This document shows, piece by piece, positions 199-56,367 of a stretch of 64,000 nucleotides of DNA. Each line of letters starts with the position of its first letter. The stretch's first letter is position 1. A model generated the notes under the pieces. That model was not told the origin of the DNA and searched no databases. It worked only from the letters and a program-made list of their open reading frames with translations. This DNA comes from Molanna angustata (Eukaryota > Arthropoda > Insecta > Trichoptera > Molannidae). The stretch covers positions 3,219,306 to 3,283,305 of the forward strand of contig OY754980.1 in assembly GCA_963576475.1 (NCBI GenBank), in the 5' to 3' direction. A program made the position numbers and the translations under genes.

Positions 199-275
199 CA
201 TAATTAGCTCAGAGCAGGAATCTTAACAATAGTCATCTTGAGAAACCTACAGTGAACAGTGAGAGCTCTCCAGTT

Positions 276-986
276 ATGAAGATAAATAGCGGACTCACCG
301 ATTACATAGATTCTAAAATGGAACAAGTGGTAAACCTGATTGCTTCGAGGTTCGAAGAAATATTTAAGAGATACGACGCTCGCTACGACGCTGCAAACAA
401 GAAAATTGACGACCTGGAGGAGAAGGTTAAAAAATTGGAGGAGAGTGTGAGGGGATTTGAGCAGTTGAGGGACGACCACCAGGTGACCCTATCCCGAATC
501 GATAATCTGGACCAGAGAGGACGTCGCATGAACGTCGAAATTCAAAATGTGACCGAGAGAAAGGGCGAAAACCTCCTTAAGATCGTCACATCGGTTGGAG
601 AAAAGATTGGTGTGCAGCTATCACAAAGTGATATCGCTGGAGTTCACAGGGTATCGCATGGGACTGGCAATGATAACAATAGACCAAAGAATATCGTATT
701 AAAATTTTCAAATCAGCACAGAAGGGACTCTTTTTTAGCTGCAGTAAAATTAAAGAAGGACCTAACCACTCAGGATATCGGAATCACAGATGCGAGCAGA
801 AAAATCTACGTCGCAGAACACCTGACTCTGAAGAAGAAGCTACTCTTCAGGGATACTCGAATCAGAGCGAAGGAGAAGGGATACAAGTTTGCATGGGTGA
901 AAAACGCAAATGTCTACGTCCGAAGGGCAGAGGGGGGAGCCGTGCTGCACATTCTCTCAACATCAGACCTTTCAAAAATCATGTAA
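276..986 (+). CDS. LINE ORF1 protein (coiled coil plus ORF1p/FP25K-like C-terminal domain)
   Basis: Open from a GTG at 252; the first ATG is at 276, giving about 236 residues. Residues ~15-75 are a heptad-rich helix (KKIDDLEEKVKKLEESVRGF), a likely trimerising coiled coil. The rest (RGRRMNVEIQNV, RPKNIVLKF, SRKIYVAEHLTLKKK, YKFAWVKNANVYVRR) has the order expected of L1-type ORF1p RNA-binding regions and the related FP25K-like domain found in other insect LINE ORF1s. No zinc knuckle or PHD finger is present. Known role of the family: binds the element RNA as a nucleic-acid chaperone in the RNP. The frame ends ATG-TAA at 981-986, and that junction overlaps a perfect GTAAGTA splice donor at 983, discussed separately. 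No frameshift or internal stop is seen. Confidence 0.8.
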   Translation: MKINSGLTDYIDSKMEQVVNLIASRFEEIFKRYDARYDAANKKIDDLEEKVKKLEESVRGFEQLRDDHQVTLSRIDNLDQRGRRMNVEIQNVTERKGENLLKIVTSVGEKIGVQLSQSDIAGVHRVSHGTGNDNNRPKNIVLKFSNQHRRDSFLAAVKLKKDLTTQDIGITDASRKIYVAEHLTLKKKLLFRDTRIRAKEKGYKFAWVKNANVYVRRAEGGAVLHILSTSDLSKIM

Positions 987-1169
987 GTACCTCTAATCCT
1001 CTCTTTCTTATCCTAATATTCCCCCTTACTCTTTTTTCCTCACTCTTTTTTCCTTTTTACTTTTGTGCTGTTATTGTTATCGGGGTCTCTTTATGCGTAT
1101 GGAGATTGTATACTTCTAACATTCTCAGACTTAATACTGTCCTATATAATGCTTATATAATTCTTTTAG
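983..1169 (+). other. putative 187-bp intron between ORF1 and ORF2 of the LINE
   Basis: It starts GTAAGTA, a consensus 5' splice site, and ends TTCTTTTAG, a consensus 3' splice site, after a long pyrimidine-rich stretch (1000-1070). The ORF1 stop lies inside it. Removal would complete the ATG codon at 981 and continue directly in the ORF2 frame at 1171. ORF2 has no in-frame ATG before its endonuclease start, because the frame is closed by TAA at 1147. Splicing is inferred from sequence only. Confidence 0.5.
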
Positions 1170-1170
1170 G

Positions 1171-4011
1171 GGCGAACTGAAGATATATTATCAGAACTGT
1201 AGGGGACTAAAAACCAAGACAGATGTTTTTAGAACAAATGTTTTGTTGAATAATTATGACCTTATAGTATTAACTGAAACCTGGCTCAATGGTGGAGTAT
1301 TCGACGCGGAACTGTTGGGAGATGAATACGTAATATACCGTAAAGATAGAAACCTTTTGCTGACTGGGAAAACCGATGGAGGTGGTGTCCTCGTGGCCGT
1401 TCTTCGAAAATACAATTGTTTACGTGAACCCAGTTGGGAAACTTGCGGAGAAAATTTGTTCGTTGGTGTGCTATTGGAACCTACAGCACAGACAAAAATC
1501 AAACTAGTTATTGGTGTAATCTATGTTCACCCGTCATCACCCATAAGTATTTACGAATCATATTTTACCGTATTGTCAAACATTATCGTTGATACTCGAC
1601 ATGATGCTCATTTATGTCTGTTGGGCGACTTTAATGTACCTTCGATTGTATGGGCCTACGATCCGAGGGAGGCTGGTGTGGTAAGGCCGGTGTCCCACAG
1701 CGGTTCCGTTGCTCAATTACTCATAGAATTTGCATCTTTCCTTGATCTGAAGCAGTTTAATCGTGTTAACAATGGCAACAACAAAATACTTGACCTCATA
1801 CTGTCGGATGTATGGTGCACTGTTATTCATTGCGACACGCCACTTGTACCGGAGGATCCGCACCATCCCTCGCTCCTGATTAGTGTCTCTTTACGAGCAG
1901 ATGGTCATCTACAAACTAATAACATTCCCAAATATAACTTTTATAAAGCTGATTACACCGGTATAAACCATAAACTCCAAATGATCGACTGGGAATTATT
2001 ATTTACGGGAAAATCTGTAGACGAGGCGGTGGATACTTTCCACAATGTATTACTGGATATCATTGATATTTTTGCCCCAAAGAAAAAGGCAAGATCTTTA
2101 AGTTATCCTGTCTGGTATTCGAACATAACCGTAACATTGCTTAAAAATAAAAACAAAAGCTGGGCAAGATGGAAAACTTTTGGTCATCCCCATGATTATT
2201 CGCTGTTTTCTAAACAAAGGGCTCAACTAAAGCAAGCACAGAGCAGGGACCACAAATTATATATTTCAAGTCTAGAACAGTCGTTGAATAGGAATGTAAA
2301 ACCATTTTTCTCGTACGTTAATAACATGAAAAAAACTGCCAGCTACCCTAAGAATATGTTCTACAGCGAGGTAAAATCTAATGATCCAGAAACTACTGCT
2401 AATTTATTCTGTTCATTTTTTGCATCTGTGTTTAACCCTCCCACTAACATGCACTCTCCAGCTGACGCGTGCGTGAACCCGGAGGTCAACTCAACTCTAT
2501 CTAAGATTCATGTACTTAGTTCCGAGGTATATGCAAAACTTGTTAACCTAGATGTCAATAAGGGTGCGGGGCCTGACATGATTTCGCCAATGCTTCTTAA
2601 AAAATGCGCACCACATCTTACAAGACCTCTACGACTAATCTTTAACAAAAGCCTTGCTGAGGGTCGCTTCCCAAAACTATGGAAAATGGCGTATGTTACA
2701 CCTATACATAAGTCGGGTTGTACATCTGATATACAGAACTACCGTCCTATATCGATCTTATCTCAATTTTCTAAAGTTTTTGAGTCTATTTTGAAGGATC
2801 GATTGTTCCATCATCTAAAGCCATGCCTACTTGATAATCAACACGGGTTTGTGAACAAAAGATCAACGGTTACAAATCTGCTTGAATATTCTGATTACTT
2901 GTTTGAGGCCTTGGACAAGCGGGTGCAGGTGGACTCAATTTACACGGATTTTAAAAAAGCTTTCGACAAGGTTGACCATGACTTGCTGATTAGGAAGTTG
3001 AGCTCTTACGGAATTCATGGTAGTCTGCTGCGTTGGGTTGAGTCTTACGTTAGTAACCGTTTGATGACTGTTGTCATGAATGGCTACAAGTCTAAATGCG
3101 TGGCCGTTACCTCGGGAGTTCCACAAGGGTCTGTTCTGGGACCCCTTCTTTTTACATTCTTCGTCAATGACATTGGTACATGCTTTAAAAATTCAGAATT
3201 TTTGCTGTTTGCCGACGATCTCAAAATTTATCGGCGAATACGTAATGAGGAGGACTGTATGGGGTTGGAGGACGATTTGAACAGACTCAGTAAATATTGC
3301 GATGCTAATAAGCTTCAACTTAATCTAAAGAAATGTAATTCCATTACATTTACAAAAAATAAAAATGTAATGAATCACATATATAAGATTGACGGAGTGG
3401 CTTTGGAACCGTTGCATAGTATTAGGGATCTAGGGGTTATTTTTGATTCAAAATTGCACTTTGACGAACATATACGGGAGGTTCTGATAAGTTGCAACAG
3501 GATTTTGGGCTTTATTCTTAGATCAACGAAAGAATTCAGTAATGTAAATTCCATATTGGTGCTATACAAATGCTTAATTCGCTCTAAATTAGAATATTGC
3601 TCTGCTGTTTGGAACCCCCTATATAGTAAGTACATTGACGAGATTGAGAAGCTGCAAAGAAAATTTTTCCGTATCGGTCAGCGTAGATTCCGTAACATCA
3701 GCGTAATGAATTTGCCAAGTCTGACACATAGGCGCGAGCTACTCGACGCATTGACGCTGCGCAAGATCTGTAACTCTGATTTTGATGCACCTGCTCTGTT
3801 GGCTAGGGTAAACTTCTGTATACCATCGTTGACTCGAATTCGCAATTACAGACAGTTCTATATGAACACTCCGACCAGTAATGCTGGTGTTAGAAGTCCC
3901 TTATACAGAGTCACTCACAATTTTAATAGTAAGTTTGGGAGTGTGGATGTCTTTGCCTCTTCCCTGAATGCGTTTAGGAGATCCATTAATCAAATACTTA
4001 CTGATTGCTAA
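1171..4011 (+). CDS. LINE ORF2: apurinic-type endonuclease and reverse transcriptase
   Basis: About 946 residues counted from 1171, where family similarity begins (LKIYYQNCRGLKTKT, with the endonuclease Asn). The first in-frame ATG is only at 1243, after that catalytic block, so an AUG start there would remove part of the active site. Endonuclease marks follow: LTETWLN, LGDFNVPSIVW, DLILSD, HHPSLLIS. The RT domain runs from about 2550 (KGAGPDMISPMLLK, YRPISILSQFSKVFE, KKAFDKVDHDLL, SGVPQGSVLGPLLF) to the catalytic FADD at 3208, then a thumb region and a C-terminal tail with no zinc knuckle. Known role: nicks target DNA and primes cDNA from the nick (TPRT). No stop or frameshift is present. 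How translation starts is the open question. Confidence 0.88.
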   Translation, partial: GELKIYYQNCRGLKTKTDVFRTNVLLNNYDLIVLTETWLNGGVFDAELLGDEYVIYRKDRNLLLTGKTDGGGVLVAVLRKYNCLREPSWETCGENLFVGVLLEPTAQTKIKLVIGVIYVHPSSPISIYESYFTVLSNIIVDTRHDAHLCLLGDFNVPSIVWAYDPREAGVVRPVSHSGSVAQLLIEFASFLDLKQFNRVNNGNNKILDLILSDVWCTVIHCDTPLVPEDPHHPSLLISVSLRADGHLQTNNIPKYNFYKADYTGINHKLQMIDWELLFTGKSVDEAVDTFHNVLLDIIDIFAPKKKARSLSYPVWYSNITVTLLKNKNKSWARWKTFGHPHDYSLFSKQRAQLKQAQSRDHKLYISSLEQSLNRNVKPFFSYVNNMKKTASYPKNMFYSEVKSNDPETTANLFCSFFASVFNPPTNMHSPADACVNPEVNSTLSKIHVLSSEVYAKLVNLDVNKGAGPDMISPMLLKKCAPHLTRPLRLIFNKSLAEGRFPKLWKMAYVTPIHKSGCTSDIQNYRPISILSQFSKVFESILKDRLFHHLKPCLLDNQHGFVNKRSTVTNLLEYSDYLFEALDKRVQVDSIYTDFKKAFDKVDHDLLIRKLSSYGIHGSLLRWVESYVSNRLMTVVMNGYKSKCVAVTSGVPQGSVLGPLLFTFFVNDIGTCFKNSEFLLFADDLKIYRRIRNEEDCMGLEDDLNRLSKYCDANKLQLNLKKCNSITFTKNKNVMNHIYKIDGVALEPLHSIRDLGVIFDSKLHFDEHIREVLISCNRILGFILRSTKEFSNVNSILVLYKCLIRSKLEYCSAVWNPLYSKYIDEIEKLQRKFFRIGQRRFRNISVMNLPSLTHRRELLDALTLRKICNSDFDAPALLARVNFCIPSLTRIRNYRQFYMNTPTSNAGVRSPLYRVTHNFNSKFGSVDVFASSLNAFRRSINQILTDC

Positions 4012-9104: not shown

Positions 9105-9912
9105 AAAATATTGCGATTTAAACAAACTATTTTTTTTCATTCGTTCCAAAAAATAATGTGTGTTTTATTGCAGCTTTTGATTTACTGTTGTATGTTTCCA
9201 AAAAAAAACAATATGTGTTTTAATGCAGCTATTGGTTTATGTTTCCAAAAAATAATATGTGGTTTATTGCAGCTTTTGGTTTACTTTTGTATGTTTCCAA
9301 AAAATAATATGTGTATTATTGCAGCTATTTGTTTACTGTTGTATGTTTCCAAAAAATAATATATTTTTTTTTAGAAATTATGGTTTGCTGTTGTATGTTT
9401 CTAAAAGAGAATATGTGTTATTTTAAAATATGTTAATATATTAATTATATATAAAAATTAAAAACAATGAAATGTATAGCAGTGACATCTGTGGAGGTGG
9501 GGTTATATATGCAATATAATATATGTTATATTGCATATTTTGGTTTAGGTACTATTGTGTGTTTTCAAAAGAGAATATGAATTTTATTAGAGCTTTTGGT
9601 TTACTGTTGTATGTTTTCAAAGGAGAATATGTGTTTTATGCAGCTTTTGGTTTACTGTTCTATGTTTCCAAAAGAGAATATGTGTTATATTGCAGCTTTT
9701 GGTTTACTGTTGTATGTTTCGAAAAGAGAATATGTGTTATATTACAGCTTTTGGTTTACTGTTGTATGTTTCGAAAAGAGAATATGTGTTATATTGCAGC
9801 TTTTGGTTTACTGTTGTATGTTTCGAAAAGAGAATATGTGTTATATTGCAGCTTTTGGTTTACTGTTGTATGTTTCGAAAAGAGAATATGTGTTATATTG
9901 CAGCTTTCGTTT
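9105..9912. repeat. 52-bp minisatellite
   Basis: The unit GCAGCTTTTGGTTTACTGTT... recurs about 15 times. Copies at 9640-9905 are almost identical with a clean 52-bp period, while those at 9105-9420 are divergent and of variable length. Because 52 is one more than a multiple of three and the unit lacks stops in all phases, three overlapping open frames (about 74-150 codons) run through the array; they have no start context or family and are not called as genes. Confidence 0.85.
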
Positions 9913-10036: not shown

Positions 10037-10254
10037 TGTTATGAAATTAAGTACTATTTCTATTTAAATTGAAAATTTAAATAGAAATATTTTGAAAATA
10101 AGAACCCAAGAAAAATGAAAACAAAAGATTTGAGTAGTGAGTTGAAAAAAAAACTAGACAAACCTTGTAAAAATATAAATTGTAGAAATATAAATTGTAA
10201 AAATAAATAAGACTTTGAACCATAATAAAATAAATAAATATAAATTTCGGTACA
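10037..10254 (+). repeat. 5' LTR
   Basis: 218 bp, TGTT...TACA, matching 15755-15972 base for base as far as I can read. Near its 5' edge is an inverted repeat (ATTTCTATTTAAAT / ATTTAAATAGAAAT, 10052-10084). An AATAAA-rich 3' part (10200-10240) could provide polyadenylation signals in the 3' copy. Confidence 0.93.
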
Positions 10255-10274: not shown

Positions 10275-10340
10275 ATAAAAATACCCAAGTATTTGTTGTG
10301 TAAGAAAAAAATAAAATAGTTATTTATAAAGACATTTATT

Positions 10341-11541
10341 ATGGCATCAAAAAAAAATAACTCTTTTAGAGTTGAAAGTGGTTGATTTAAAACATGAGTT
10401 GGAGGAGAGAGACGCTGATACATCAGGAAATAAAAATGCACTTCAACTACGATTGAGAAAAGTGATGCAAGAAGTAGGTGAGGATCCAGACACATACCTT
10501 TTTGAAATGCCTTGCTCTAACAACGATCTTTGTCAAGTCTTAAAAGAACATTCCAGAGACATAGAAGAGAAGTTTCAAGAACATTCCAGAGATATAAAAG
10601 GAGAAATTAAAGAAATCAAAGGAGAAGTAGCGATGCTTCAAAAGCATTCAAATACTATAGAAAAGAAATTCCAGAATTATTCTATGACCTTTGATGAGAA
10701 GATAAATGAATTAACTAAACAGATGAAAGTTTTGGAGAATCAAGTGCTTCCTTCAATCACGCCAATGAATTCCGAGCAAAATTCAGCTGTAGATACAAAT
10801 TTTAAGTGTGTAGAAGATACAAGAGTACCAACAGTGGAGTGCGTGCGAAATGATATGCCAACCTTTGATGGAAAATGCCCCTGGGAAGAATATTTAACAT
10901 TGTTCGAGACAGTGGCCATGATAAATGGCTGGTCCATGACAAGAAAGGCCTCAGTGTTGAGTGTATCATTACGAGGTGATGCTTTAAAAGTTTTGGAGAC
11001 AATTCCTCTAGCTGAGCGACGAGATTTAAAATTGTTGATTGAGAGACTTGAGATGCGATTTGGACATAAGCACATGGAACAGTTTTACAGGTCACAACTT
11101 AAGAATCGTAATCAGAAATCTAATGAAACTCTCCAGGAATTTGAGGCGGATATAGCGCGTCTAATTAGATATGCATACCCTACGGTTCCTGATGATGTGT
11201 GTGAAAGCCTTGCAGTAGAAAAGTTCTTGGATGGATTGTGGGCAAATGAGACACAACAAGCTGTAAAACTAGCTAGACCACAAACTTTGAGTGACGCTCT
11301 AACCCAGGCACTCGAATTTGAATCTATAAAAAAATCTTTACGAGGTCATGCTCAAGCCCGCGTTGTTGAGGCCGTTGAAGAGAATCAAAAACTCATCGAA
11401 TGCATTGTCGAAAAGGTGATGAAGGCATTGCAAGGAAGAAAAAGACAGTTTCGCTGCTGGGGTTGTGGACGAGCTGGACATCTACGTAATCGGTGTCCAA
11501 ATGAAGCAACAACGCAACAGCAACAGCCACAGGAAAACTAA
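10341..11541 (+). CDS. gag: Gag-like protein of the gypsy element (start out of frame by 1 nt)
   Basis: The long frame is open from about 10342 to TAA at 11539, but the only good ATG (10341) reads into a different frame and stops at 10383. A 9-A run at 10349-10357 separates them; one fewer A would put the ATG in frame. Without it the first in-frame ATG is near 10462, past the N-terminal segment. That segment (VVDLKHELEERDADTSGNK.. LQLRLRKVM) resembles a SAP DNA/RNA-binding helix pair. Next come a coiled coil with repeated EHSRDI motifs, the capsid-like core (FDGKCPWEEYLTLFETVA to LEFESIKKSL) and one CCHC knuckle, C-x2-C-x4-H-x4-C, near the C-terminus. Role: assembles the particle and packages RNA. 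The A-run may be a real lesion, a slippage site or an assembly error. Confidence 0.85.
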
Positions 11542-14500
11542 AAAGGGTTGATGGGAAGGGGCAACTGTTGACCTACATTACCAATGCCTCAAAGAGATCT
11601 GCAGTTGTTGCATCATTCAGTGGTCAAGATACCAGTATGTTTATAAATGGCAAAGTAAATGGAAAGAATTTGAAACTTTTGCTGGATACTGGAGCAACGA
11701 TGACAATCATGAGACCAGATTTGCTTTATAACAAAAAGTGTATTACACCAACTAAATGGACATTACGAACAGCTACTGGGGAGTCGGCATCTATATGTGG
11801 TGAGACATATGCCAACTTTCAAATTGGTAGTTCTATCTTCGATCATCAGGTGCTAGTGGCGAATATAGAGGAGGAAGTTATTCTCGGAATGGACATAATG
11901 GCGAAATATGGATTCCAGTTGGATCTAAAGAGGCGATCTTTGAAAATTGGAGATGAAGATGTTCTCGTGCAAGAGCGTGAGGAATTTTCTACACGTGTTC
12001 TTGCAGCGGATGTTGTAACTATTCCAAAACAAAGTGAGATGTTAGTACGAGTCAATTTAGACTGTGTTATCCCGAATGGACATGTTTTGGTTGTGGAGTC
12101 CAACGCCAACAATGAAGCAGGAAAAGGAGTATTAATTGCAAGAGCACTGATTCAAAACCAAAAGGAAATTTTAGTCAGATTAATGAACATAAATGAATAT
12201 CCAGTAACTGTCAAAAAAGGAGCTTATTTAAGTGTGTGTTCATCAGTTTCATCAGTAACACAAAATGCCTGCATCGCACAAGTTTCTTCAGAGGATGTAC
12301 CAAAACATCTTGAAGACTTTGTAAAAGATGCTTGTAAGGAACTTACCAAAGAACAAAGCAAACAAATTAGATACCTCATTGCTCATTATCAAGATGTTTT
12401 TGAGAATGCGAGTCTTTCTAAAGGAAGAACCAATGTTGTTCAACATCAAATAGATACGGGTGACGCAAGGCCTATCCGCCAATTACCTAGAAGGCTACCA
12501 TTAGCAAAGCGGGCGGAAGCAGATCAAATTATTCAAGACATGGAAAGGGATAGCGTTATTGAACCATCAAGCAGCCCATGGTGTTCACCAGTAGTGTTAG
12601 TTAAAAAAAAAGATGGCTCAACTCGGTTCTGTGTGGACTTTCGCTTATTGAATAATGTAACTAAGAAGGATAGTTATCCACTGCCTCGAATCGATGATAC
12701 CCTAGATACATTGGCTGGTTGTAAGATCTTCTCAACTTTGGATCTAAAGAGTGGTTATTGGCAGGTTGGATTGGAACCCAAGGATAGAGAAAAAACGGCG
12801 TTTTCTGTTGGAAGTGGATTGTGGCAATTCAAAGTGATGCCATTTGGACTTTGCAATGCACCGGCTACGTTTGAACGACTAATGGAAAGTGTGCTAAGAG
12901 GATTATCGTGGGAGACCTGTTTGGTATACTTAGATGACATCATCGTACTTGGGAAGCGTTTTGAAGAACATTTAGGAAATTTGGAACAGGTATTTTCACG
13001 ATTGAGGTTGGCCAACCTTAAACTCAATTGCAAGAAATGTATATTGTTCCGAAAGCAAGTCAACTATCTAGGTCATGTTGTCTCTGAGGAGGGAGTAGCA
13101 GTAGATCCTGAGAAGATTAAAGCTGTTCGAGATTGGCCAGTACTTAAAGACAAACATGAAGTAAGAAGCTTTTTGGGTCTGAGTACCTACTATCGACGAT
13201 TTGTTCCAGGCTTTGCTGACATCGCAAAGCCACTGACAAAACTCACGGAGGAAAGCAGTGAATTCATATGGGATTTCAAGTGCCAACATGCATTTGAAGA
13301 ATTAAAACAGGTTCTAATTAATTCTCCGGTTTTGAGTTATCCTCGAGCTGAAGGAATGTTTATTCTGGATACAGATGCAAGTAACGTTGGTATCGGAAGT
13401 GTGCTCTCCCAAGTACAAGATGGGGCAGAACGCGTGATTGCTTACTTCAGTAAAGTATTGTCGAAACCAGAACGCAATTACTGTGTAACACGAAGAGAAT
13501 TGCTTGCTGTTATCAAGTCAGTTGAGCACTTTCGCAAGTATTTATATGGACGGAAATTTCTTTTAAGGACAGATCACTCGGCACTTGTGTGGCTTTTGCG
13601 ATTCAAGAATCCTGAAGGTCAAGTGGCAAGATGGATAGAGAGATTGCAAGAATATGACTATGATTCTGAACATCGAGCCGGACTTCATCATAGAAATGCC
13701 GATGCACTGTCAAGGCGACCATGTCCAGAGGATTGCCAGCACTGTAATAAGGCTGAGGAAAAGTTTTTTATAGCTTGTAGAACCACGGTCGTTGACAATT
13801 TTTGGCAAGATGATGAAATACGAGCAGACCAATTGGAAGACCCAGATCTCAAGTTTGTAATGCAGTGGAAGGAAAATGATCAAAGACCTTTATGGGAAGA
13901 AATAGCTTCACTATCTCCAAATATTAAGTCATACTGGGCTCAGTGGCAATCCATTGTCGTGGAAAATGGGTTGTTAAAGCGTGTATTGGAGAATGAAGAT
14001 GGAACACAGCAGAGACAACAACTATTGATTCCAAGGAAGAGAATTCCTGAAGTTCTTAAACTGCTTCACAATGATGTGTCTGGGGGACACTTGGGAGTTA
14101 AAAAAACCACAGAAAAAATTCGTCAACGTTTTTATTGGGTCAATTACAATGGAGATGTAAAAGATTGGTGTAGAAGATGTGTAACTTGTGCCACTTCAAA
14201 CGGACCTCAGAAACGAAGGCGTGCGCCAATGAGGCAGTATAATGTTGGTAGCCCATTTGAAAGGATAGCCATTGACATAGCGGGGCCGTTTCCCACAACG
14301 GAAAGAGGGAATAAATATATTCTGGTAGCAATGGACTATTTTAGTAAATGGACAGAAGCCTATGCACTACCGAATCAAGAAGCTACCACTGTTGCTGAAG
14401 TCTTGGTAAGGGAACTGATAAGTCGTTTTGGAGTACCATTGGAGTTACACTCGGACCAGGGAAGAAACTTTGAATCAGCCGTATTCCAGGGAATTTGTGA

Positions 14501-15743
14501 AGCATTAGGAATTCGAAAGACGAGAACAACTGCTTTGCATCCACAGTCGGATGGAATGGTGGAGCGAATGAATCGAACAATTGGAAGATTTTTGTCAAAA
14601 GCAGTGTCCGATCACCAGAAGGATTGGGACGAATACATCCACTTGTTCTTATTAGCTTATCGAGCAGCAATTCATGAGACAACAGGGCAAACACCGGCAA
14701 GTGTGATTTTTGGCCGTGAGTTACGGTTACCTTGCGACCTGCAGTATGGATCTAAGCCTGGAGAAGATCTAGTTGGAGAAGATTATGTGTCAGATCTTCG
14801 GAGGAAAATGAATGCTATACATGACCGTGTACGGTCCAATATTCAAGTAGCTAGTGACAAGATGAAGGAGCGATACGACATTAAAGCTGTGGAAGGTGGT
14901 TATCAGGCTGGAGACTTGGTTTGGTTATTTAATCCACAACGACGACGAGGCTACTCACCAAAGCTTCAGAAATCCTGGGAAGGACCGTATGAAGTGATCA
15001 AAAGGATTAATGATGTGGTTTATCGTATACGAAGAAAACCAAATGGGAAGCCAAGAGTGGTACATTTCAATCGCCTGGCTCCCTTTTTAGGTGATAACAA
15101 GGATGAGGAAAAAAATCCAGTTGCTCAAGTTTGCAATGTCCAAAGTGAAGAAAAGACCTTCGAGGAATTCATGATGACTCCTTATCGACGCACTCGCCAT
15201 GGTGTGACTGTGGAAATTGAGCAAGACCTCTTCGATATCCCAGAAGATAATGTTTTAGCTTACTGTGTGGCTCAAGACATGAAGATGACTAGTGGTATAG
15301 CCAAAGTTATCATGAGAAAGTATGGGATGTTATATGAGCTAAAAGCCAAGAATCTGAAGATTGGAGAAGCGGTCCATTCACAGCATGGAAAACAGCATTT
15401 ATTCTACATGACGAATAAGGAAACGTCTGAGGAACGAGCAGAGTATGCTCAGATGTGGAACTGTCTACGAAGTATGCGGGATCAAATGTTACAGTTGAAT
15501 CTTATGAAGCTCGGCATTCCAAAGATCAGTGATGGTATGGATTGGAAAGTGGTTCGGAATATGATAGAAGAGATTTTTCATAATACTGGAATTAATGTTC
15601 TAGTTTGCTGCTATAATCCAAGATACAGTAAAAATATAAAAAAAAGTGTACCATGTTACTTTTTCAAAGCATCTCACTGTAGAGAAGGTTCAAAATGCCG
15701 ATTTATTCATCTAGAGAATTCTGTTCGGGACGAACTGAACTAA
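11505..15743 (+). CDS. pol: Pol polyprotein: protease, RT, RNase H, integrase, macro domain, CCCH finger
   Basis: The frame is open from 11505, overlaps the end of gag by 37 nt in the -1 phase and has no early ATG, so -1 frameshifting near GGAAAAC (11532-11538) is the likely route. Residues counted from TTG 11568: protease DTGA at 40 and ILGMD; RT with YLDD at 454-457; RNase H (DTDASNVG, RRELLAV, TDHSALVW); integrase HHCC finger, then D903, D963 and E999 (35 residues between the last two) and a GPY/F-type module (WEGPYEVI ... VVHFNRLAPF). After integrase, ~1215-1355 is macro-like (LFDIPEDNVLAYCVAQDMKM, GIAKVIMRKYG, MTNKE, GIPKISDGMDWKVV, MIEEIF), and C1363-C1371-C1377-H1381 is a CCCH finger. 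The frame is intact to TAA 15741. Confidence 0.93.
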   Translation, partial: SNNATATATGKLKRVDGKGQLLTYITNASKRSAVVASFSGQDTSMFINGKVNGKNLKLLLDTGATMTIMRPDLLYNKKCITPTKWTLRTATGESASICGETYANFQIGSSIFDHQVLVANIEEEVILGMDIMAKYGFQLDLKRRSLKIGDEDVLVQEREEFSTRVLAADVVTIPKQSEMLVRVNLDCVIPNGHVLVVESNANNEAGKGVLIARALIQNQKEILVRLMNINEYPVTVKKGAYLSVCSSVSSVTQNACIAQVSSEDVPKHLEDFVKDACKELTKEQSKQIRYLIAHYQDVFENASLSKGRTNVVQHQIDTGDARPIRQLPRRLPLAKRAEADQIIQDMERDSVIEPSSSPWCSPVVLVKKKDGSTRFCVDFRLLNNVTKKDSYPLPRIDDTLDTLAGCKIFSTLDLKSGYWQVGLEPKDREKTAFSVGSGLWQFKVMPFGLCNAPATFERLMESVLRGLSWETCLVYLDDIIVLGKRFEEHLGNLEQVFSRLRLANLKLNCKKCILFRKQVNYLGHVVSEEGVAVDPEKIKAVRDWPVLKDKHEVRSFLGLSTYYRRFVPGFADIAKPLTKLTEESSEFIWDFKCQHAFEELKQVLINSPVLSYPRAEGMFILDTDASNVGIGSVLSQVQDGAERVIAYFSKVLSKPERNYCVTRRELLAVIKSVEHFRKYLYGRKFLLRTDHSALVWLLRFKNPEGQVARWIERLQEYDYDSEHRAGLHHRNADALSRRPCPEDCQHCNKAEEKFFIACRTTVVDNFWQDDEIRADQLEDPDLKFVMQWKENDQRPLWEEIASLSPNIKSYWAQWQSIVVENGLLKRVLENEDGTQQRQQLLIPRKRIPEVLKLLHNDVSGGHLGVKKTTEKIRQRFYWVNYNGDVKDWCRRCVTCATSNGPQKRRRAPMRQYNVGSPFERIAIDIAGPFPTTERGNKYILVAMDYFSKWTEAYALPNQEATTVAEVLVRELISRFGVPLELHSDQGRNFESAVFQGICEALGIRKTRTTALHPQSDGMVERMNRTIGRFLSKAVSDHQKDWDEYIHLFLLAYRAAIHETTGQTPASVIFGRELRLPCDLQYGSKPGEDLVGEDYVSDLRRKMNAIHDRVRSNIQVASDKMKERYDIKAVEGGYQAGDLVWLFNPQRRRGYSPKLQKSWEGPYEVIKRINDVVYRIRRKPNGKPRVVHFNRLAPFLGDNKDEEKNPVAQVCNVQSEEKTFEEFMMTPYRRTRHGVTVEIEQDLFDIPEDNVLAYCVAQDMKMTSGIAKVIMRKYGMLYELKAKNLKIGEAVHSQHGKQHLFYMTNKETSEERAEYAQMWNCLRSMRDQMLQLNLMKLGIPKISDGMDWKVVRNMIEEIFHNTGINVLVCCYNPRYSKNIKKSVPCYFFKASHCREGSKCRFIHLENSVRDELN
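15213..15640 (+). other. macro-like (ADP-ribose binding/hydrolase) domain within pol
   Basis: Residues ~1216-1358 follow the order of the TARG1/OARD1-type macro fold: an initial LF-x-PEDN strand, AYCVAQDMKM, a glycine turn in SGIAKV, KYG, a GEAV strand, a FYMTNK strand, WNCLRSMRDQ helix, LGIPKIS..GMDW loop and VRNMIEEIF helix. K1284 (in TNK) and D1325 (in GMD) sit where that family has its catalytic Lys and Asp. The glycine-rich loop is shorter and altered (SDGMD), so binding or hydrolysis cannot be assumed. Assignment is by motif order only. Confidence 0.7.
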
Positions 15744-15754
15744 GAGGGAGGCAG
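15742..15754 (+). other. polypurine tract
   Basis: AAGAGGGAGGCAG overlaps the end of the pol stop codon and abuts the 3' LTR, where plus-strand DNA priming is expected. Confidence 0.8.
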
Positions 15755-15972
15755 TGTTATGAAATTAAGTACTATTTCTATTTAAATTGAAAATTTAAAT
15801 AGAAATATTTTGAAAATAAGAACCCAAGAAAAATGAAAACAAAAGATTTGAGTAGTGAGTTGAAAAAAAAACTAGACAAACCTTGTAAAAATATAAATTG
15901 TAGAAATATAAATTGTAAAAATAAATAAGACTTTGAACCATAATAAAATAAATAAATATAAATTTCGGTACA
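15755..15972 (+). repeat. 3' LTR
   Basis: 218 bp, apparently identical to the LTR at 10037-10254, and followed by the ATAT target duplication. Confidence 0.93.
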
Positions 15973-16559: not shown

Positions 16560-16928
16560 CATTTTCGGGTGTCCCGTCATCAATACCAGAGGCAAAATAA
16601 GATCTCACTTAGTTCAGCACCCATTCTGAATGTAGTGAAGTTTTAGTTAAGGTGGTTTATAAGGTAGTACATCCGCACACCTGTTGCTGGTTACCCCCCA
16701 TTGTCAGATAATATATCATGTTGGTATGAATGAATGAATGAATGAATGAATGAATGAATGAATGAATGAATGAATGAATGAATGAATGAATGAATGAATG
16801 AATGAATGAATGAATGAATGAATGAATGAATGAATGAATGAATGAATGAATGAATGAATGAATGAATGAATGAATGAATGAATGAATTAATGAATGAATG
16901 AATGAATTAATTAATTAATTAATTAATT
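16560..16928 (-). mobile_element. repeat family C with (GAAT)n end
   Basis: Minus-strand copy of the dispersed repeat seen best at 41146-41445: shared blocks are the CGGGTGTCCCGT segment, CCCATTCTGAATGTAGTG, the CACACCTGTTGCTGGTTACCCC segment and ATATCATG. It ends in a 200-bp (GAAT)n array (16727-16928), grading into (TTAA)n. The copy at 41146 ends in the complementary (TCAT)n, so the tetranucleotide is part of the element end, as in LINE or SINE tails. Confidence 0.65.
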
Positions 16929-18891: not shown

Positions 18892-19135
<244 letters not shown>

Positions 19136-19154
19136 ATATTTGATGTTTTCACGG

Positions 19155-20753
<1,599 letters not shown>

Positions 20754-50371: not shown

Positions 50372-51502
50372 ATATAAAAATTTACCAATATACCAATAAA
50401 AGAAAGCAAAAACATAATAGACAGTTTACTTAACAACTCGGATCTCCCCTTAGATATAACAAATGATTTGAAACGATTATTAGAGGTTTGCTTGAGTCAA
50501 AACTATTTCCAGTATGATAATGTTGTTTACCAACAAAAAGAAGGATTACCAATGGGAGCCCGTACAAGTCCACTTATAGCCGACATTTTTGTAGATTTCT
50601 TAGAAAATAAAATATTTGGATCAAATTCGGTTTTATTGAAATATATATTTTTATGGAAGAGATACGTGGACGATATATTTTGCATTTTTACCGGTACTGA
50701 TCGACAATTAAAGTTGCTCTTAAATTTTATAAACTCGTTTCACCCTAAGATTCAGTTCACATTGGAAATAGAAAAGGAAAATACACTTAATTTTTTAGAT
50801 TTAAAATTGACAATAGTAAATAATAAAATTGAATTTGATATACCTATATCGTAAACCGACCTATACAGATACAACTATCCACAATACATCCAACCATCCA
50901 GCATCCCATAAACATTCCGCTTATCATTCCATGGTCCATAGATTACTAAATATACCACTATCATCAAATAATTTTAATAAAGAACTAAATACAATAAAAC
51001 AGATTGCATACAATAATGGTTATAACAGTAAATTGATAGACTCTATTTTAAATAAAAAAATAAAAAATATTAACGTCAATAGATACCTACATAGTTATAA
51101 TACAAATATCAAAAAAGATGAATATAGATGGAGACGCATATTGTTTGTTAATAATTTATCCCAATTAGTCTCAAATTTCTTACCAAAAGACATAAGACCG
51201 GCATTTTACACTGACAATAATATTGGAAAAAGTTTAATGAATTCCAAAGATAAAGATAATAAAATGGAAAACTCCGGCGTATACCAACTGACATGTGGAG
51301 ACTGCTCTGCAGTCTACATAGGAAAAACAGGACGGAAATTTGAGACTAGAGTAAAAGAACATATTAGATGTATAAACAATGATAATTTTTCGGAATTCGC
51401 AGAACACTTAGTACTTAATGATCATCAATTTAATATGCAATCGGGAACAAAAATTTTACACGTCAACAAAGTAGGTCTCCGTCTTGATAATTTAGAGTCG
51501 CA
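50372..51502 (+). pseudogene. Penelope-like element ORF, first segment (RT plus GIY-YIG)
   Basis: Starts 5'-truncated at FTNIPIKESKN, then LPMGARTSPLIADIFV (RT motif B, ~50550), KRYVDDIFCIF (catalytic YVDD, 50662) and NFLDLKLTI. A 4-base insertion near 50845 breaks the frame; it resumes as YRKPTYTDTTIHNTSNHPAS. The GIY-YIG nuclease is at 51276-51370 (GVYQLTCGDCSAVYIGKT, TRVKEH). The ORF is then cut at about 51502 by the RTE insertion and continues at 52515 and again at 56644. It belongs to a different PLE lineage from the copy at 19671. Confidence 0.9.
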
Positions 51503-52495
51503 AGAATCGACTCAAGATACTCAAGGCTAATTAAATTTATATATGACCATGCCACAATGGTTGTAAAAATTGACGAAGAAACAAAAACGGAAAAAGTAAA
51601 AATCTGTAGAGGCGTCAGACAGGGAGACACCATTTCTCCCAAACTATTTACTGTTGCCCTGGAAAATGTTTTTAAAACTTTAAATTGGGAAAAAAAGGGT
51701 ATAAAAATAAATGGCATGTATCTGACCCATCTCAGATTTGCTGATGACATAGTTCTTGTAAGTGAAGATCTGGCAGAATTAAGTGGCATGATCAAAGATC
51801 TGCACGAAGCTTCCCTAAAGATTGGCCTGGAGATGAATATAAATAAAACGAAAATAATGAGTTCATCCAGCAACAGCTTAAAAATCGACAACAAAACGAT
51901 TGAAGCTGTAGACGAGTATATTTATCTTGGGCAGAAAATCACATTAGGGAAGGAAAACCAAACAGCGGAAATACCTAGAAGGATTGGTCTCGGCTGGGCT
52001 GCTTTTGGCAAACTCCAGCATGTCCTAAAAAACAAAGAAATCCCCATTAATTTGAAACGAAGAGTTTTTGAATCGTGTGTCCTCCCTGTGATGACGTATG
52101 GTCTAGAAACGATGACATTGACTGCCAACACCACATACAAACTTAAATGCGCACAGCGATCCATGGAGAGGCAAATGTTAGGCATAAGTCTGAGAAATAA
52201 AATAAGAAATGAAGAGATCAGACGCCAGACCAAGGTTGTCGACATTATGGACCATGTAGCAAGATTAAAGTGGCAATGGGCAGGTCACGTTGCTAGACAG
52301 GGAACAGAGAGATGGGCACCCAGAGTTATGAGGTGGAGACCATGGGGAAATAAACGGGGAATAGGTCGACCAATGAAAAGATGGGCGGACGATATTGTCC
52401 CTGTTGCGGGTAGAAACTGGCCGAGACGAGCCATGGACCGAAATAAATGGAAGGATTTTGAAGAGGCCTACATCCAGCAGTGGAGAGACGGCTAA
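51503..52495 (+). CDS. RTE ORF2 C-terminal half (RT palm to end)
   Basis: About 330 codons without stops: RT motif B (CRGVRQGDTISPKLFTVALE), catalytic FADD at 51739, GLEMNINKTKIMSS, YIYLGQKITL, then the post-RT region RRVFESCVLPVMTYGLETM, MERQMLGISLRNKIRNEEI, LKWQWAGHVARQG, RGIGRPMKRWADDI and AYIQQWRDG at the end. The endonuclease and RT motif A are missing through 5' truncation. The other RTE scraps in the window (1, 4319, 30297, 40123, 60945, 61545) can be read against this copy. As an element it is immobile alone. Confidence 0.9.
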   Translation, partial: RIDSRYSRLIKFIYDHATMVVKIDEETKTEKVKICRGVRQGDTISPKLFTVALENVFKTLNWEKKGIKINGMYLTHLRFADDIVLVSEDLAELSGMIKDLHEASLKIGLEMNINKTKIMSSSSNSLKIDNKTIEAVDEYIYLGQKITLGKENQTAEIPRRIGLGWAAFGKLQHVLKNKEIPINLKRRVFESCVLPVMTYGLETMTLTANTTYKLKCAQRSMERQMLGISLRNKIRNEEIRRQTKVVDIMDHVARLKWQWAGHVARQGTERWAPRVMRWRPWGNKRGIGRPMKRWADDIVPVAGRNWPRRAMDRNKWKDFEEAYIQQWRDG

Positions 52496-52516
52496 AGAAG
52501 AAGAAGAAGAAGAAAT
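51503..52516 (+). mobile_element. 5'-truncated RTE-type LINE with (GAA)n tail
   Basis: Inserted into the PLE frame: similarity starts at RIDSRYSRLIKFIYDHATM directly after the PLE codons for LESQE, and ends in the (GAA)n tail at 52494-52514. The flanking CAAGAA/AAGAA suggests a short target duplication masked by the tail. The surviving ORF is uninterrupted. Confidence 0.88.
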
Positions 52517-52559
52517 TAAAAAGTGTATTAATTCAAAACAGAACATAATAAACAATCAG
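52515..52559 (+). pseudogene. PLE ORF, second segment, with R1 target duplication
   Basis: Fifteen codons (IKKCINSKQNIINNQ) continue the PLE C-terminus after the RTE insertion. The last 13 bases, AATAAACAATCAG (52547-52559), recur at 56631-56643 and form the target duplication of the R1-like element. Confidence 0.85.
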
Positions 52560-53207
52560 ATCACCAGTGTGCGTAGTATTAGAGGCAATGGAATCGTAGT
52601 CAACACGGCCTCTGCTTCTGACTCCATTAAGCTCCTAAACGCGCCGGCCCTAAAAATGTCCAAGAATCTGAGTGCTCGGTTAGCTCCAAAACGGAACCCT
52701 AGAGTACGTTTCAGTTTTGTTCCTCGGGATATGTCTCACGAAGAATTCTTGGCTCTGGCGTTTTCGTCAGTCCCAGATATGGGAGTAAGCCAGGAAGATT
52801 GTTTAAAGAATACACATTTCAGCCACTTCATGGGACCTCGCACTGGACCTACGTGTGACAGGGTTTTTGAAGTAACGCCAGCGATCAGACACAAACTCAT
52901 TGAGCTCGGAAGAGTCTATGTAGAATGGAGCGTGTGTAAGGTCCGAGACTTCATACCTATAAATGTGTGCTCAAGATGCCGGATGTATGGGCATACAAGT
53001 AAGTATTGCAAAGATCCCCCGCGTTGCGGCCACTGTGCTTCTGGTGAGCATGACTTCTCAGCATGTCCCGTAAAAGACAGTCCACCTACTTGTGCAGTCT
53101 GTACTTCTTTCAAAAAACCAGCATCACACAAATCCGGTTCTGATCAATGTCCAGCTTTTCAGGCTTCTCTGAGCCGTGCCCTATTAACTGTTGATTATGG
53201 CCTGTAG
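52560..53207 (+). CDS. R1-like ORF1 (Gag-like, three zinc knuckles), 5'-truncated
   Basis: About 215 codons of the element, beginning IRGNGIVVNTASAS and continuing with a VRFSFVPRDM strand. The C-terminal zinc knuckles are CSRCRMYGHTSKYC, CGHCASGEHDFSAC and a third Cys-rich block (CAVCTSFKK ... DQC), the array typical of R1/I-group ORF1. Role in the family: RNA binding and RNP formation. The frame happens to be open upstream through the PLE scrap and the RTE tail to 52395, so an automatic call would yield a chimeric 270-residue protein; the element-specific part starts at 52560. It ends at TAG 53205, overlapping the ORF2 start. Confidence 0.88.
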   Translation: MTSVRSIRGNGIVVNTASASDSIKLLNAPALKMSKNLSARLAPKRNPRVRFSFVPRDMSHEEFLALAFSSVPDMGVSQEDCLKNTHFSHFMGPRTGPTCDRVFEVTPAIRHKLIELGRVYVEWSVCKVRDFIPINVCSRCRMYGHTSKYCKDPPRCGHCASGEHDFSACPVKDSPPTCAVCTSFKKPASHKSGSDQCPAFQASLSRALLTVDYGL

Positions 53208-56200
53208 TATATCCCTATCAGCCGGTCTTAAAATCGGACAGCTTAATCTGGGCCGACGTCGTGCTGCCTCCTTGGAGCTTATGCAACTTGCCCATCAACT
53301 GAATCTTGATATCTGTCTGGTTCAGGAACCTTACATTGGCGACGGCTCTATGTATGGGACGGATTCAGACTTCCGTGTAGTTTCTGCCACTTGCTGTTCC
53401 ATTGATTTGCCCCCTCTAGCATCAATAATTATTTTTAATTCTGCAATATCCTATATCTTACTAGATCATCTTTCCTCGAGCACTACAGTCGTGCTTGAAG
53501 TTTCTCTTTTTGGTGAATCCATGTATTTGGTATCAACCTACTTCAAATTTAGTGACCCGATTGAACCACATGTGTGCTTGTTGGACAGTATAATGAATCA
53601 TCTAGGTGGAGCTTCCATTCTGATTGGCGGTGACTTAAATGCTGAATCCCCTTTATGGTGCACTTCAGTATCTCTGGGCTCCAGAAAAGCTAAACGCGGT
53701 GAATTGTGCGAGGATTTCATAGCAGCGCATGCTCTTTCAGTCATTAACGATCCCACTAGCCCACCTACTTTTTCTAGTACCGTCGGTTCTGGTCACATCG
53801 ATGTTACTATTGCCTCTTCCCGAATTGCAGACAAAATCAGCCAATGGTGTGTCCATGTGGACGCTTCTTGCAGCGACCATGAACTCATCACTTTTTCTGT
53901 ACGTTCATCCTTAGTTGAACAGCACATCCCTTCTCTAATTCCTGGACGTTTTCGCACCAAGTCTAATCGTTTGATTGATTTTGACTTTGAGTTTTCTCGC
54001 TTCCTTGATCACTTCAATCACACTCTATTGACAACACATGAAATGGCATCCGCCCTTACTGATAGCATTGTCACATGTGCTGAAAAAACTATTGGCAGAT
54101 CAATACCTCGAAAGCTAATGCCAAATACGTGGTGGCATTCCGGTCTTGACGCTCTAAAGCAATGTGCATCACGCTCTCGTCGAGCCCTACGAACAGGTCG
54201 TAGTCGAAACTACACAAGTTTTACTATTTCAAGCCTTTACTGTAGTTACAGACAGGCCCACAATCGTTACAAAAAAGAGATAATTCGCGCTAAAACCGCA
54301 AGCTGGCATAAAATGGTCTCTGAGGTATCTGTTTCGGATCCTTGGGGTGCTGTGTTTAAATGTGTTTCATCAAAACGAGATAACAATAGAGCTCTTTCAT
54401 GTATAATCCGTATAAATAATGGCAATATGACTTCATCCATTGATGATACTGCCTCTGCTTTCCTGGATGCATTAGTCTCAAAAGACAATCCTCTGACTGA
54501 CAACGATTTTCACAAACAGGTTCGTACTCTTCAAAAAACTATTCCTCTAACATCCCCTTCGCCACCAACTTCTGCTGAGGAACTTGATTTAATTATCAAG
54601 AACCTTAAGCAAAATAAATCCCCAGGCTTAGATCGCATTGATTCTTCTCTAGCTCAGAGATGCTGGCGTCTAGCTCGTTCTGAAATGACTGTCCTCTTCA
54701 ACCGATGTCTAAATGAAGGCTGTTTTCCAGATTGCTGGAAAACAGGTCTCATGACGATAATATCCAAACGTTGCGATCGCTCTAGTACGGATCCCAAATC
54801 ATACAGACCCATTACTCTTCTCCCTATTCTAGGTAAAGTTCTCGAGCAATTGATTTGCCGTAGAATTGAGTCACATCTCTCTAATTATCGTCCGCTATCC
54901 CGACGCCAATTTGGTTTTCGTCCCGGCATCTCCACCGTTGACGCTGTTAACGAGATGATAGATTTTGTAGAGTGCTCCAATGAGAAATATGTTGTAGCCA
55001 TCTCGCTTGATATAAGTGGTGCGTTTGACAATGCTTGGTGGCCGCTCATTCTGCACAAACTTAAGGCTAGAAATATTCCTCGTAACTTATACCTTATTGT
55101 TAAGAGCTACTTCGAAAATCGCCACATAGTCCTTCCTGGGGGTCAATTTATTCATAAGCGACAAGTAAGCATTGGATGTCCTCAAGGTTCTGTTCTCGGT
55201 CCACTTCTTTGGAACATTCTTTTCGATGATCTATTGGATCTTCCTCTTCCGAGCAACTGTATAATTCAAGCATATGCTGATGATGCTTACATTATGATTC
55301 GTGCTGATTCTCGCAGATCAATCGAGAACTCAGCCACCCAAGCGCTGAGCTTTGTTTCTGACTGGGGTATAAAAAACAAGCTATGCTTCGCTCCGAACAA
55401 GACTTATGGCCTGGTATTTAAGGGCATACTTCGCAGACGGCCGTCCATCCAGTTTCTAGGAACTAATATTGTCTTTCGAGACCAAGTCACCTGTCTCGGA
55501 GTTATTCTAGAAAGGGGACCGAGTTTCAAAAATCATGCCAAATCATGTGTAGATAAGGCTAAGTTTGCTTTCATTAAAATAGGACACCTCGCCAAAGCAA
55601 GCTGGGGTCTGCAATTTCCTATCGCCCGCCTTTTCTACAAAGCCGTTTATCTTGGCATCGCTTGCTATGCGGCAGGCTGTTGGTCTAACGCCTGCGAGTT
55701 TCAGCATATTCGAAGAACCTTGCTTTCAGGCCAAAGATTCGCTCTCATTGCACTATCCAAAGCTTACAGAACAAGCCCCACCGAAGCCCTGCCAATTTTG
55801 ACAGGCTTAACCCCCCTTGATCTTGAAATTCAACGTAGAGGTGCTATTTTCAATTTATTGCGAGGCCGTCCTTCTGTCGTCGGTGACACTTATTTTCACC
55901 CCCCTGAAAGTCGAATGTCTCGAAGCTCAATTAAGAGAAACGTGAGCGACACTCTACTAAACATTTGGCAAAACCGCTGGACGACCTGTCTAGTTGGTAG
56001 AGTTACCTTTTTATTTTTTCCTGACGTGAGGTCGCGACTGAAATCTCCTTGGGTTGTTCCAGACTTTTGGACTTCTCAATTTCTCACAGGACACGGTAAC
56101 TTTAAAAGCTATCTCCATCGCTTCAACATTGCTCCCTCTTCCTCATGTCAGTTTTGTCAATGTCCGGACCAAACTTCGGATCACATCCTTTGGGAGTGTT

Positions 56201-56367
56201 CCCACCCAATTGTGTCCTCTTACAGATCGGAGCTCCTCGTTGCTGTCCGTGGGCCTCTTCAAGGTCCCATTGGACATGCGGACTTAGTGATCTCGAAGAA
56301 CAATTACAAAGCCTTCAAACGATTTTGCCATAGATACGGTGCCTTATTATCCAAAGATTCTCACTGA
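53197..56367 (+). CDS. R1-like ORF2: endonuclease-reverse transcriptase, intact
   Basis: ATG 53197 lies 11 bases before the end of ORF1, giving a -1 overlap; 1,056 residues. Endonuclease 1-235: KIGQLNLGR, LVQEPY (catalytic Glu), GGDLNAES, SDHELITF. RT from ~470: NKSPGLDRI, YRPITLLPILGKVLE, SLDISGAFDNAWW, SIGCPQGSVLGPLLWN and catalytic YADD at 693-696. The C-terminal knuckle starts at C984 (C-x2-C-x8-H-x4-C), then GPIGHADLV. Role: nicks target DNA and reverse-transcribes the element RNA on site. No stop or frameshift, so the enzyme may be functional even though the element copy is truncated in ORF1. Confidence 0.93.
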   Translation: MACSISLSAGLKIGQLNLGRRRAASLELMQLAHQLNLDICLVQEPYIGDGSMYGTDSDFRVVSATCCSIDLPPLASIIIFNSAISYILLDHLSSSTTVVLEVSLFGESMYLVSTYFKFSDPIEPHVCLLDSIMNHLGGASILIGGDLNAESPLWCTSVSLGSRKAKRGELCEDFIAAHALSVINDPTSPPTFSSTVGSGHIDVTIASSRIADKISQWCVHVDASCSDHELITFSVRSSLVEQHIPSLIPGRFRTKSNRLIDFDFEFSRFLDHFNHTLLTTHEMASALTDSIVTCAEKTIGRSIPRKLMPNTWWHSGLDALKQCASRSRRALRTGRSRNYTSFTISSLYCSYRQAHNRYKKEIIRAKTASWHKMVSEVSVSDPWGAVFKCVSSKRDNNRALSCIIRINNGNMTSSIDDTASAFLDALVSKDNPLTDNDFHKQVRTLQKTIPLTSPSPPTSAEELDLIIKNLKQNKSPGLDRIDSSLAQRCWRLARSEMTVLFNRCLNEGCFPDCWKTGLMTIISKRCDRSSTDPKSYRPITLLPILGKVLEQLICRRIESHLSNYRPLSRRQFGFRPGISTVDAVNEMIDFVECSNEKYVVAISLDISGAFDNAWWPLILHKLKARNIPRNLYLIVKSYFENRHIVLPGGQFIHKRQVSIGCPQGSVLGPLLWNILFDDLLDLPLPSNCIIQAYADDAYIMIRADSRRSIENSATQALSFVSDWGIKNKLCFAPNKTYGLVFKGILRRRPSIQFLGTNIVFRDQVTCLGVILERGPSFKNHAKSCVDKAKFAFIKIGHLAKASWGLQFPIARLFYKAVYLGIACYAAGCWSNACEFQHIRRTLLSGQRFALIALSKAYRTSPTEALPILTGLTPLDLEIQRRGAIFNLLRGRPSVVGDTYFHPPESRMSRSSIKRNVSDTLLNIWQNRWTTCLVGRVTFLFFPDVRSRLKSPWVVPDFWTSQFLTGHGNFKSYLHRFNIAPSSSCQFCQCPDQTSDHILWECSHPIVSSYRSELLVAVRGPLQGPIGHADLVISKNNYKAFKRFCHRYGALLSKDSH

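Follow-up and report, generated by a model that had tools for sequence, protein, structure and literature searches.

What does a Ty3/gypsy retrotransposon carry beyond the C-terminal module of its integrase, and what might that extension do? The question is raised by an element in a 64,000-nucleotide stretch of the trichopteran Molanna angustata (GenBank assembly GCA_963576475.1, contig OY754980.1, forward-strand positions 3,219,306 to 3,283,305), the whole of which is referred to here as the window and numbered from its first letter. The Pol tail of this element (Table 1) contains a TARG1/OARD1-type macro domain of the ALC1-like class with both catalytic residues, an identification that is strongly supported by sequence matches, alignments and the predicted fold, and it ends in a candidate CCCH-type zinc finger.

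Six TARG1/OARD1 motifs checked from those that the initial annotation had read in the tail were present, within residues 1252-1358. Compared with 177,635 distinct PDB sequences, the domain gave a macro match with an E-value of 8.1e-18, which is far beyond chance. A macro fold was predicted confidently by AlphaFold2 (AF2), and a TARG1-like macro fold spans the full domain, as in the TARG1/OARD1 subgroup. The proposed fold is upheld by structure prediction and by the PDB match but not by the general Macro profile of Pfam, which scored 13.8-15.5 bits, below its cut-off of 22. The names MacroD1/2 and PARG were absent from the 50 VIA-align matches listed, which does not exclude these classes. A small-molecule or tRNA-splicing-type role, in which the domain would hydrolyze ADP-ribose-1''-phosphate or O-acyl-ADP-ribose as yeast Poa1p does, is most improbable, given that the window domain is far closer to TARG1 than to Poa1p. 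Assignment to the DarG antitoxin macrodomains was rejected, as the TARG1 Asp is present and the NCBIfam DarG profile, whose cut-off is 250, scored 15.0 bits; no DarT-type Pfam match was found in gag or Pol. The best 50 matches in a viral structure library named no retroelement, though many of those rows are nameless; Kadipiro virus VP8 ranked first, and several proteins of thrips-associated RNA viruses also ranked high.

The element that carries this domain is a complete-looking, recently inserted Ty3/gypsy long terminal repeat (LTR) retrotransposon. Its LTRs, which had been called identical, are direct repeats that agree over all 218 nt, and ATAT stands both 5' of the 5' LTR and 3' of the 3' LTR as a 4-bp target duplication. 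The Pfam matches in Pol follow the order aspartyl protease, RVT_1 (reverse transcriptase, RT), RNaseH, Integrase_H2C2, rve and Integrase_p58_C, and the motifs LDTGA, YLDD and the integrase D-x35-E near residue 984 read as intact; together with the LTRs, the target duplication and the GPY/F module, this order marks a Ty3/gypsy element. Only 11 purine-rich nucleotides separate the pol stop from the 3' LTR, which leaves no space for an env frame. Given these LTRs, motifs and the lack of env space, the insertion looks complete and recent, and the tail is the 3' coding end of the element rather than a read-through into host DNA. In Gag, Pfam identified a SAP domain (1e-7), while PNMA, Ty3_capsid and zf-CCHC all scored under their cut-offs; the SAP domain, at 10372-10461 (residues 15-44), is a DNA-binding-type motif. 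No canonical slippery heptamer occurs within 11470-11560, where gag and pol overlap, and RNA folding over the same interval gave nothing notable (z -0.28). Pfam, searched at E up to 1 with Pol and with its C-terminal 247 residues, matched no chromodomain, and the element was not classed as a chromovirus, a type that has this domain at the C end of integrase.

The initial annotation had described pol as running about 240 residues beyond GPY/F in an intact frame, and both points hold for this copy. The tail comprises 219 or 250 residues in one open frame, depending on whether it is counted from the end of Integrase_p58_C (residue 1193) or from GPY (1160-1162). Its 216 codons stay open as far as the polypurine stretch, which happened in none of 20,000 mononucleotide shuffles, and the other five frames contain 9-19 stops across the same stretch. 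Guanine-plus-cytosine content at the three codon positions was 0.486/0.287/0.409 in the linker and macro domain, 0.522/0.375/0.336 from protease through RT to integrase, and 0.309/0.295/0.268 in a flanking stretch. The linker that joins integrase to the macro domain is modeled by AF2 at a predicted local distance difference test (pLDDT) score of 59-61, except for block 21-30 (pLDDT 82), where tail residues 23-28 form a short helix. Because the frame is open and the catalytic dyad is kept in a domain so diverged, coding constraint over much of the tail's history would be the simplest explanation, as judged from one copy. Scans of IMG/VR with the tail, with part of Pol plus the tail and with two Ty3-type RT DNA patterns found no element; since the RT patterns matched nothing there, these scans say nothing on the rarity of the tail. 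A genome-contig scan with the tail alone found no relative.

The catalytic residues named in the initial annotation, Lys1284 and Asp1325, are Lys1305 and Asp1346 under stop-to-stop numbering. HMMER aligned them with Lys84 and Asp125 of human TARG1, with a spacing of 41 in both proteins. The sections consulted describe Lys84/Asp125 as the catalytic dyad of TARG1 (PMC9411070) and Lys84 as making a covalent intermediate that is resolved by residue 125 (PMC7050489, where the residue is printed as Glu). Conservation was judged in a set comprising the window domain, human TARG1 and 103 prokaryote or phage rows. The bacterial rows are the best 80 of 122 confirmed loci, gathered by the patterns D-x-x-M-G-A-G-I-A or P-x-I-G-[CSA]-G-L-D, and the viral rows represent 23 of 25 loci gathered by D-x-x-M-[GT]-[ASL]-G-I-A (L009 and L027 were omitted, their proteins being the same as those of L008 and L017). 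As the rows were chosen by pattern, conservation is inflated in those stretches; Lys84, however, lies outside both pattern stretches and Asp125 outside the viral one. Of the 103 rows, 101 have K at the first dyad position and 101 have D at the second; two rows are gapped, one of which (b_L056) is an 11-residue mis-extraction that was retained, so that its branch is meaningless and it counts as gaps. The equivalents of TARG1 D20, D37, G43, G123 and W129 are likewise retained in the window domain.

Several results speak against an unaltered TARG1-type enzyme. The window domain keeps 13 of 25 near-invariant positions, compared with 24 of 25 in human TARG1; among its 12 changed sites, five changes are conservative (I/V, L/M twice, K/R and M/I) and one site is also changed in the human protein. 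The altered sites include TARG1 H32, G41, T83, K90, P91 and G121, and C122 is changed as well (C in 77/103 rows), while Ser35 is replaced by Ala, as in 7 of the 103 relatives. The stretch around TARG1 119-127 corresponds to what a passage of PMC5087735 names the phosphate-binding loop. Human TARG1 (GCGLDRLQW) and most relatives follow the consensus GCGLD-x-L-x-W there, whereas the window domain has SDGMD-W and lacks three residues after Asp125. Identity to the prokaryotic and phage relatives reaches 48% for human TARG1 and at most 37% for the window domain, and their terminal branches in the tree are 0.76 and 1.75, respectively. Altered specificity, fast antagonistic evolution or partial loss would each fit this pattern of divergence. 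A captured passenger under relaxation and heading for decay would be consistent with the long branch, the changed near-invariant sites and the single copy seen, but an open frame of such length, the retention of the dyad with its five accompanying residues, and the confidently predicted fold make such decay quite improbable.

Another possibility is that the domain would read rather than erase. In chromoviruses, chromodomains occupy the position after GPY/F and steer integration. Because the tail shares that place, directly after the integrase C-terminal module, the main rival to an eraser is a macro domain that would bind ADP-ribosylated chromatin or break sites without cleavage and so guide integrase. 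The remodeled phosphate loop and the many altered invariant sites are consistent with binding of this kind, as is the description, in the part of PMC5087735 consulted, of ALC1, a member of the same macro class, as a poly-ADP-ribose binder. Both catalytic residues are nevertheless retained despite wide change elsewhere, and we regard a tether as rather unlikely.

The origin of the domain was considered with the same set, in a tree rooted at the midpoint. The window domain stands on a long branch, and the best support among the surrounding clades listed is 68, one of them having no value owing to the midpoint rooting. A Tyr at TARG1 position 80 is common to the window domain and human TARG1 and occurs in none of the 103 other rows (N in 100). 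The window domain has four rare shared residues in all; because 35 of the 103 rows share at least as many, these residues do not establish that the domain derives from a host TARG1, human TARG1 being the single eukaryotic reference in the set. Large phages, among them Bacillus phage G, Lactobacillus phage LpeD and Fusobacterium phages, encode TARG1-like proteins that stand alone and have the Lys/Asp dyad. Annotations of the phage loci (L002, L003, L004 and, from IMG/VR, L007-L031) vary between hypothetical protein, phosphatase, macrodomain and O-acetyl-ADP-ribose deacetylase-like protein.

The CCCH finger proposed for the end of Pol has fared less clearly than the macro domain. The spacing C-x7-C-x5-C-x3-H is present, and the broader pattern C-x7-9-C-x4-6-C-x3-H arises in 179 of 100,000 tail shuffles. 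The Pfam zf-CCCH score is borderline, at 20.9 bits in a 247-residue piece (cut-off 20.5) and 18.0 bits in the whole of Pol. Weak PDB matches were obtained with the 44-residue C-terminal piece, to CPSF30 (6.8e-5, the sum of five weak fingers) and tristetraprolin (0.0017); in the CPSF30 fingers that align best, the spacing is that of the window finger. A single-sequence model of the finger was of low confidence (pLDDT 55.3). The fingers of CPSF30 and tristetraprolin bind RNA.

Domain identity, predicted fold, catalytic dyad and open frame are established; that the domain would hydrolyze its substrate is our inference. A TARG1-type hydrolase that acts on the element's own nucleoprotein, or on host modifiers of it, is the most likely reading of the sequence, to which we would give somewhat less than an even chance. 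A plausible mechanism would begin with a Ty3/gypsy element whose Pol acquired, at its C-terminal end, a macro domain of TARG1 type and a finger of CCCH type. After processing, the tail would remain associated with integrase or with the nucleoprotein; its finger would serve as an anchor on RNA, and its macro domain would strip ADP-ribose by the Lys/Asp mechanism. The likely substrates would be ADP-ribose placed by host PARP-type enzymes either on the RNA or cDNA ends of the element or on integrase and chromatin proteins. Its removal would leave the ends fit for reverse transcription, for integration and for repair, or would blunt host silencing. According to the literature consulted, TARG1 acts on modified proteins, O-acyl-ADP-ribose and the phosphate ends of nucleic acids, of which DNA ends are modified by PARP1-3 and RNA ends by PARP10, 11 and 15. 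A Pol-borne TARG1 at the integrase end, beside an RNA-binding-type finger, would be well placed for element RNA, cDNA ends and integrase. We propose more tentatively that a Ty3/gypsy lineage may erase ADP-ribose from these targets as a counter-defense, or as self-repair, against PARP-type host modification. It is similarly tentative that such an eraser is Pol-fused and fast-evolving, with its own RNA-binding-type finger, and of a macro class other than the MacroD type of coronaviruses, togaviruses and hepeviruses. Removal of mono-ADP-ribose from host silencing factors is conceivable but improbable. Silencing of L1 is promoted by mono-ADP-ribosylation of KAP1 by SIRT6, as stated in the portion of PMC4695847 consulted, and a mark of this type could be the target. 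No sequence feature in the element, however, indicates a silencing factor as its target. KAP1 is, in addition, a vertebrate factor.

Table 1. Features of the Ty3/gypsy element, in positions of the window
Feature	Positions	Strand	Remarks
5' LTR	10037..10254	+	218 nt, TG...CA; copy of 15755-15972 without differences
gag frame	10330..11541	+	403 codons; open reading frame; SAP domain near N end, CCHC knuckle
pol frame	11505..15743	+	1412 codons; in the -1 frame with respect to gag; protease, RT, RNase H and integrase, then the tail
Integrase C-terminal module (Integrase_p58_C, GPY/F)	14982..15083	+	Pfam, residues 1160-1193
Linker	15093..15203	+	about 37 residues
TARG1/OARD1-type macro domain	15204..15626	+	tail residues about 38-178
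Lys1305, equivalent of TARG1 Lys84	15417..15419	+	from alignments
Asp1346, equivalent of TARG1 Asp125	15540..15542	+	from alignments; within the altered, shortened phosphate-binding loop
C-x7-C-x5-C-x3-H zinc finger	15654..15710	+	from sequence; CYFFKASHCREGSKCRFIH
Polypurine-tract-like stretch	15744..15754	+	11 nt, from pol stop to 3' LTR; sequence reading
3' LTR	15755..15972	+	matches 5' LTR exactly

Other repeats surround the element in the window. A 52-bp minisatellite (9144-9907) lies about 130 bases upstream of it and an ATGA array (16726-16927) about 750 bases downstream. At 204-4011 there is a pair of long open frames resembling a long interspersed nuclear element, one with a Baculo_FP_2nd domain and the other with matches to endonuclease (under its cut-off) and RT. 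A (TA)n array, several hundred bases long (18894-19672), remains open in a 433-codon frame (19232-20533), the later part of which appears Penelope-like by eye, with no Pfam match at 1e-3. At 50378-51530, an RT match and, after it in an overlapping frame, a GIY-YIG match are arranged as in Penelope-like elements. The stretch 51491-56367 contains one more RT match as well as an endonuclease-RT frame of 1059 codons; ahead of the latter is a cysteine-rich frame that looks CCHC-like by eye and has no match in Pfam at 1e-3.

Should the domain prove active and be retained among copies, it would tie ADP-ribosylation to the replication or silencing of LTR retrotransposons and would offer a compact natural test case, an eraser carried on the element's own Pol. 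The macro-domain counter-defense theme would then reach Ty3/gypsy elements from RNA viruses and fish retroviruses, with a domain of TARG1 rather than MacroD type. LTR retroelements with captured eraser-type domains are known, while a macro domain inside a Ty3/gypsy Pol was not found described in the literature searched, which covered few subscription journals and no repeat database; in the part of PMC7217437 consulted, a macrodomain gene and retrotransposons are both mentioned, but separately.

Chromoviruses have an integrase with an extra domain, the chromodomain, after its C-terminal module, and the present Pol differs in having none among its Pfam matches. Human TARG1/OARD1/C6orf130 (4j5q, 4j5r and 4j5s) is identical to the window domain at 40 of 130 aligned residues; the window domain differs in its altered and shorter phosphate loop and in being fused, along with a CCCH-type finger, to the Pol of a retroelement. 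ALC1-like hydrolases are described in the section of PMC7050489 consulted as minimal and free of extensions at the N or C terminus. The TARG1-like proteins of phages and bacteria (e.g., gp437 of Bacillus phage G and locus L032 of Neobacillus paridis, the latter giving the best identity, 37%) belong to the same subgroup and have the same dyad, but the phage examples are short stand-alone frames, unlike the Pol-fused domain of the window. Some fish epsilon-like endogenous retroviruses, according to a passage of PMC4977317 citing Basta et al. (2009), carry macro-domain open reading frames; these too place a macro domain inside an LTR retroelement, but as additional frames, of a macro class that the passage leaves unstated. 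The orchid Ty3/gypsy elements that bear an AlkB-type N6-methyladenosine demethylase domain, as the consulted portion of PMC9289625 describes them, have likewise captured an eraser enzyme, differing from the element in the window in the enzyme, in its position as an additional open reading frame and in the plant host.
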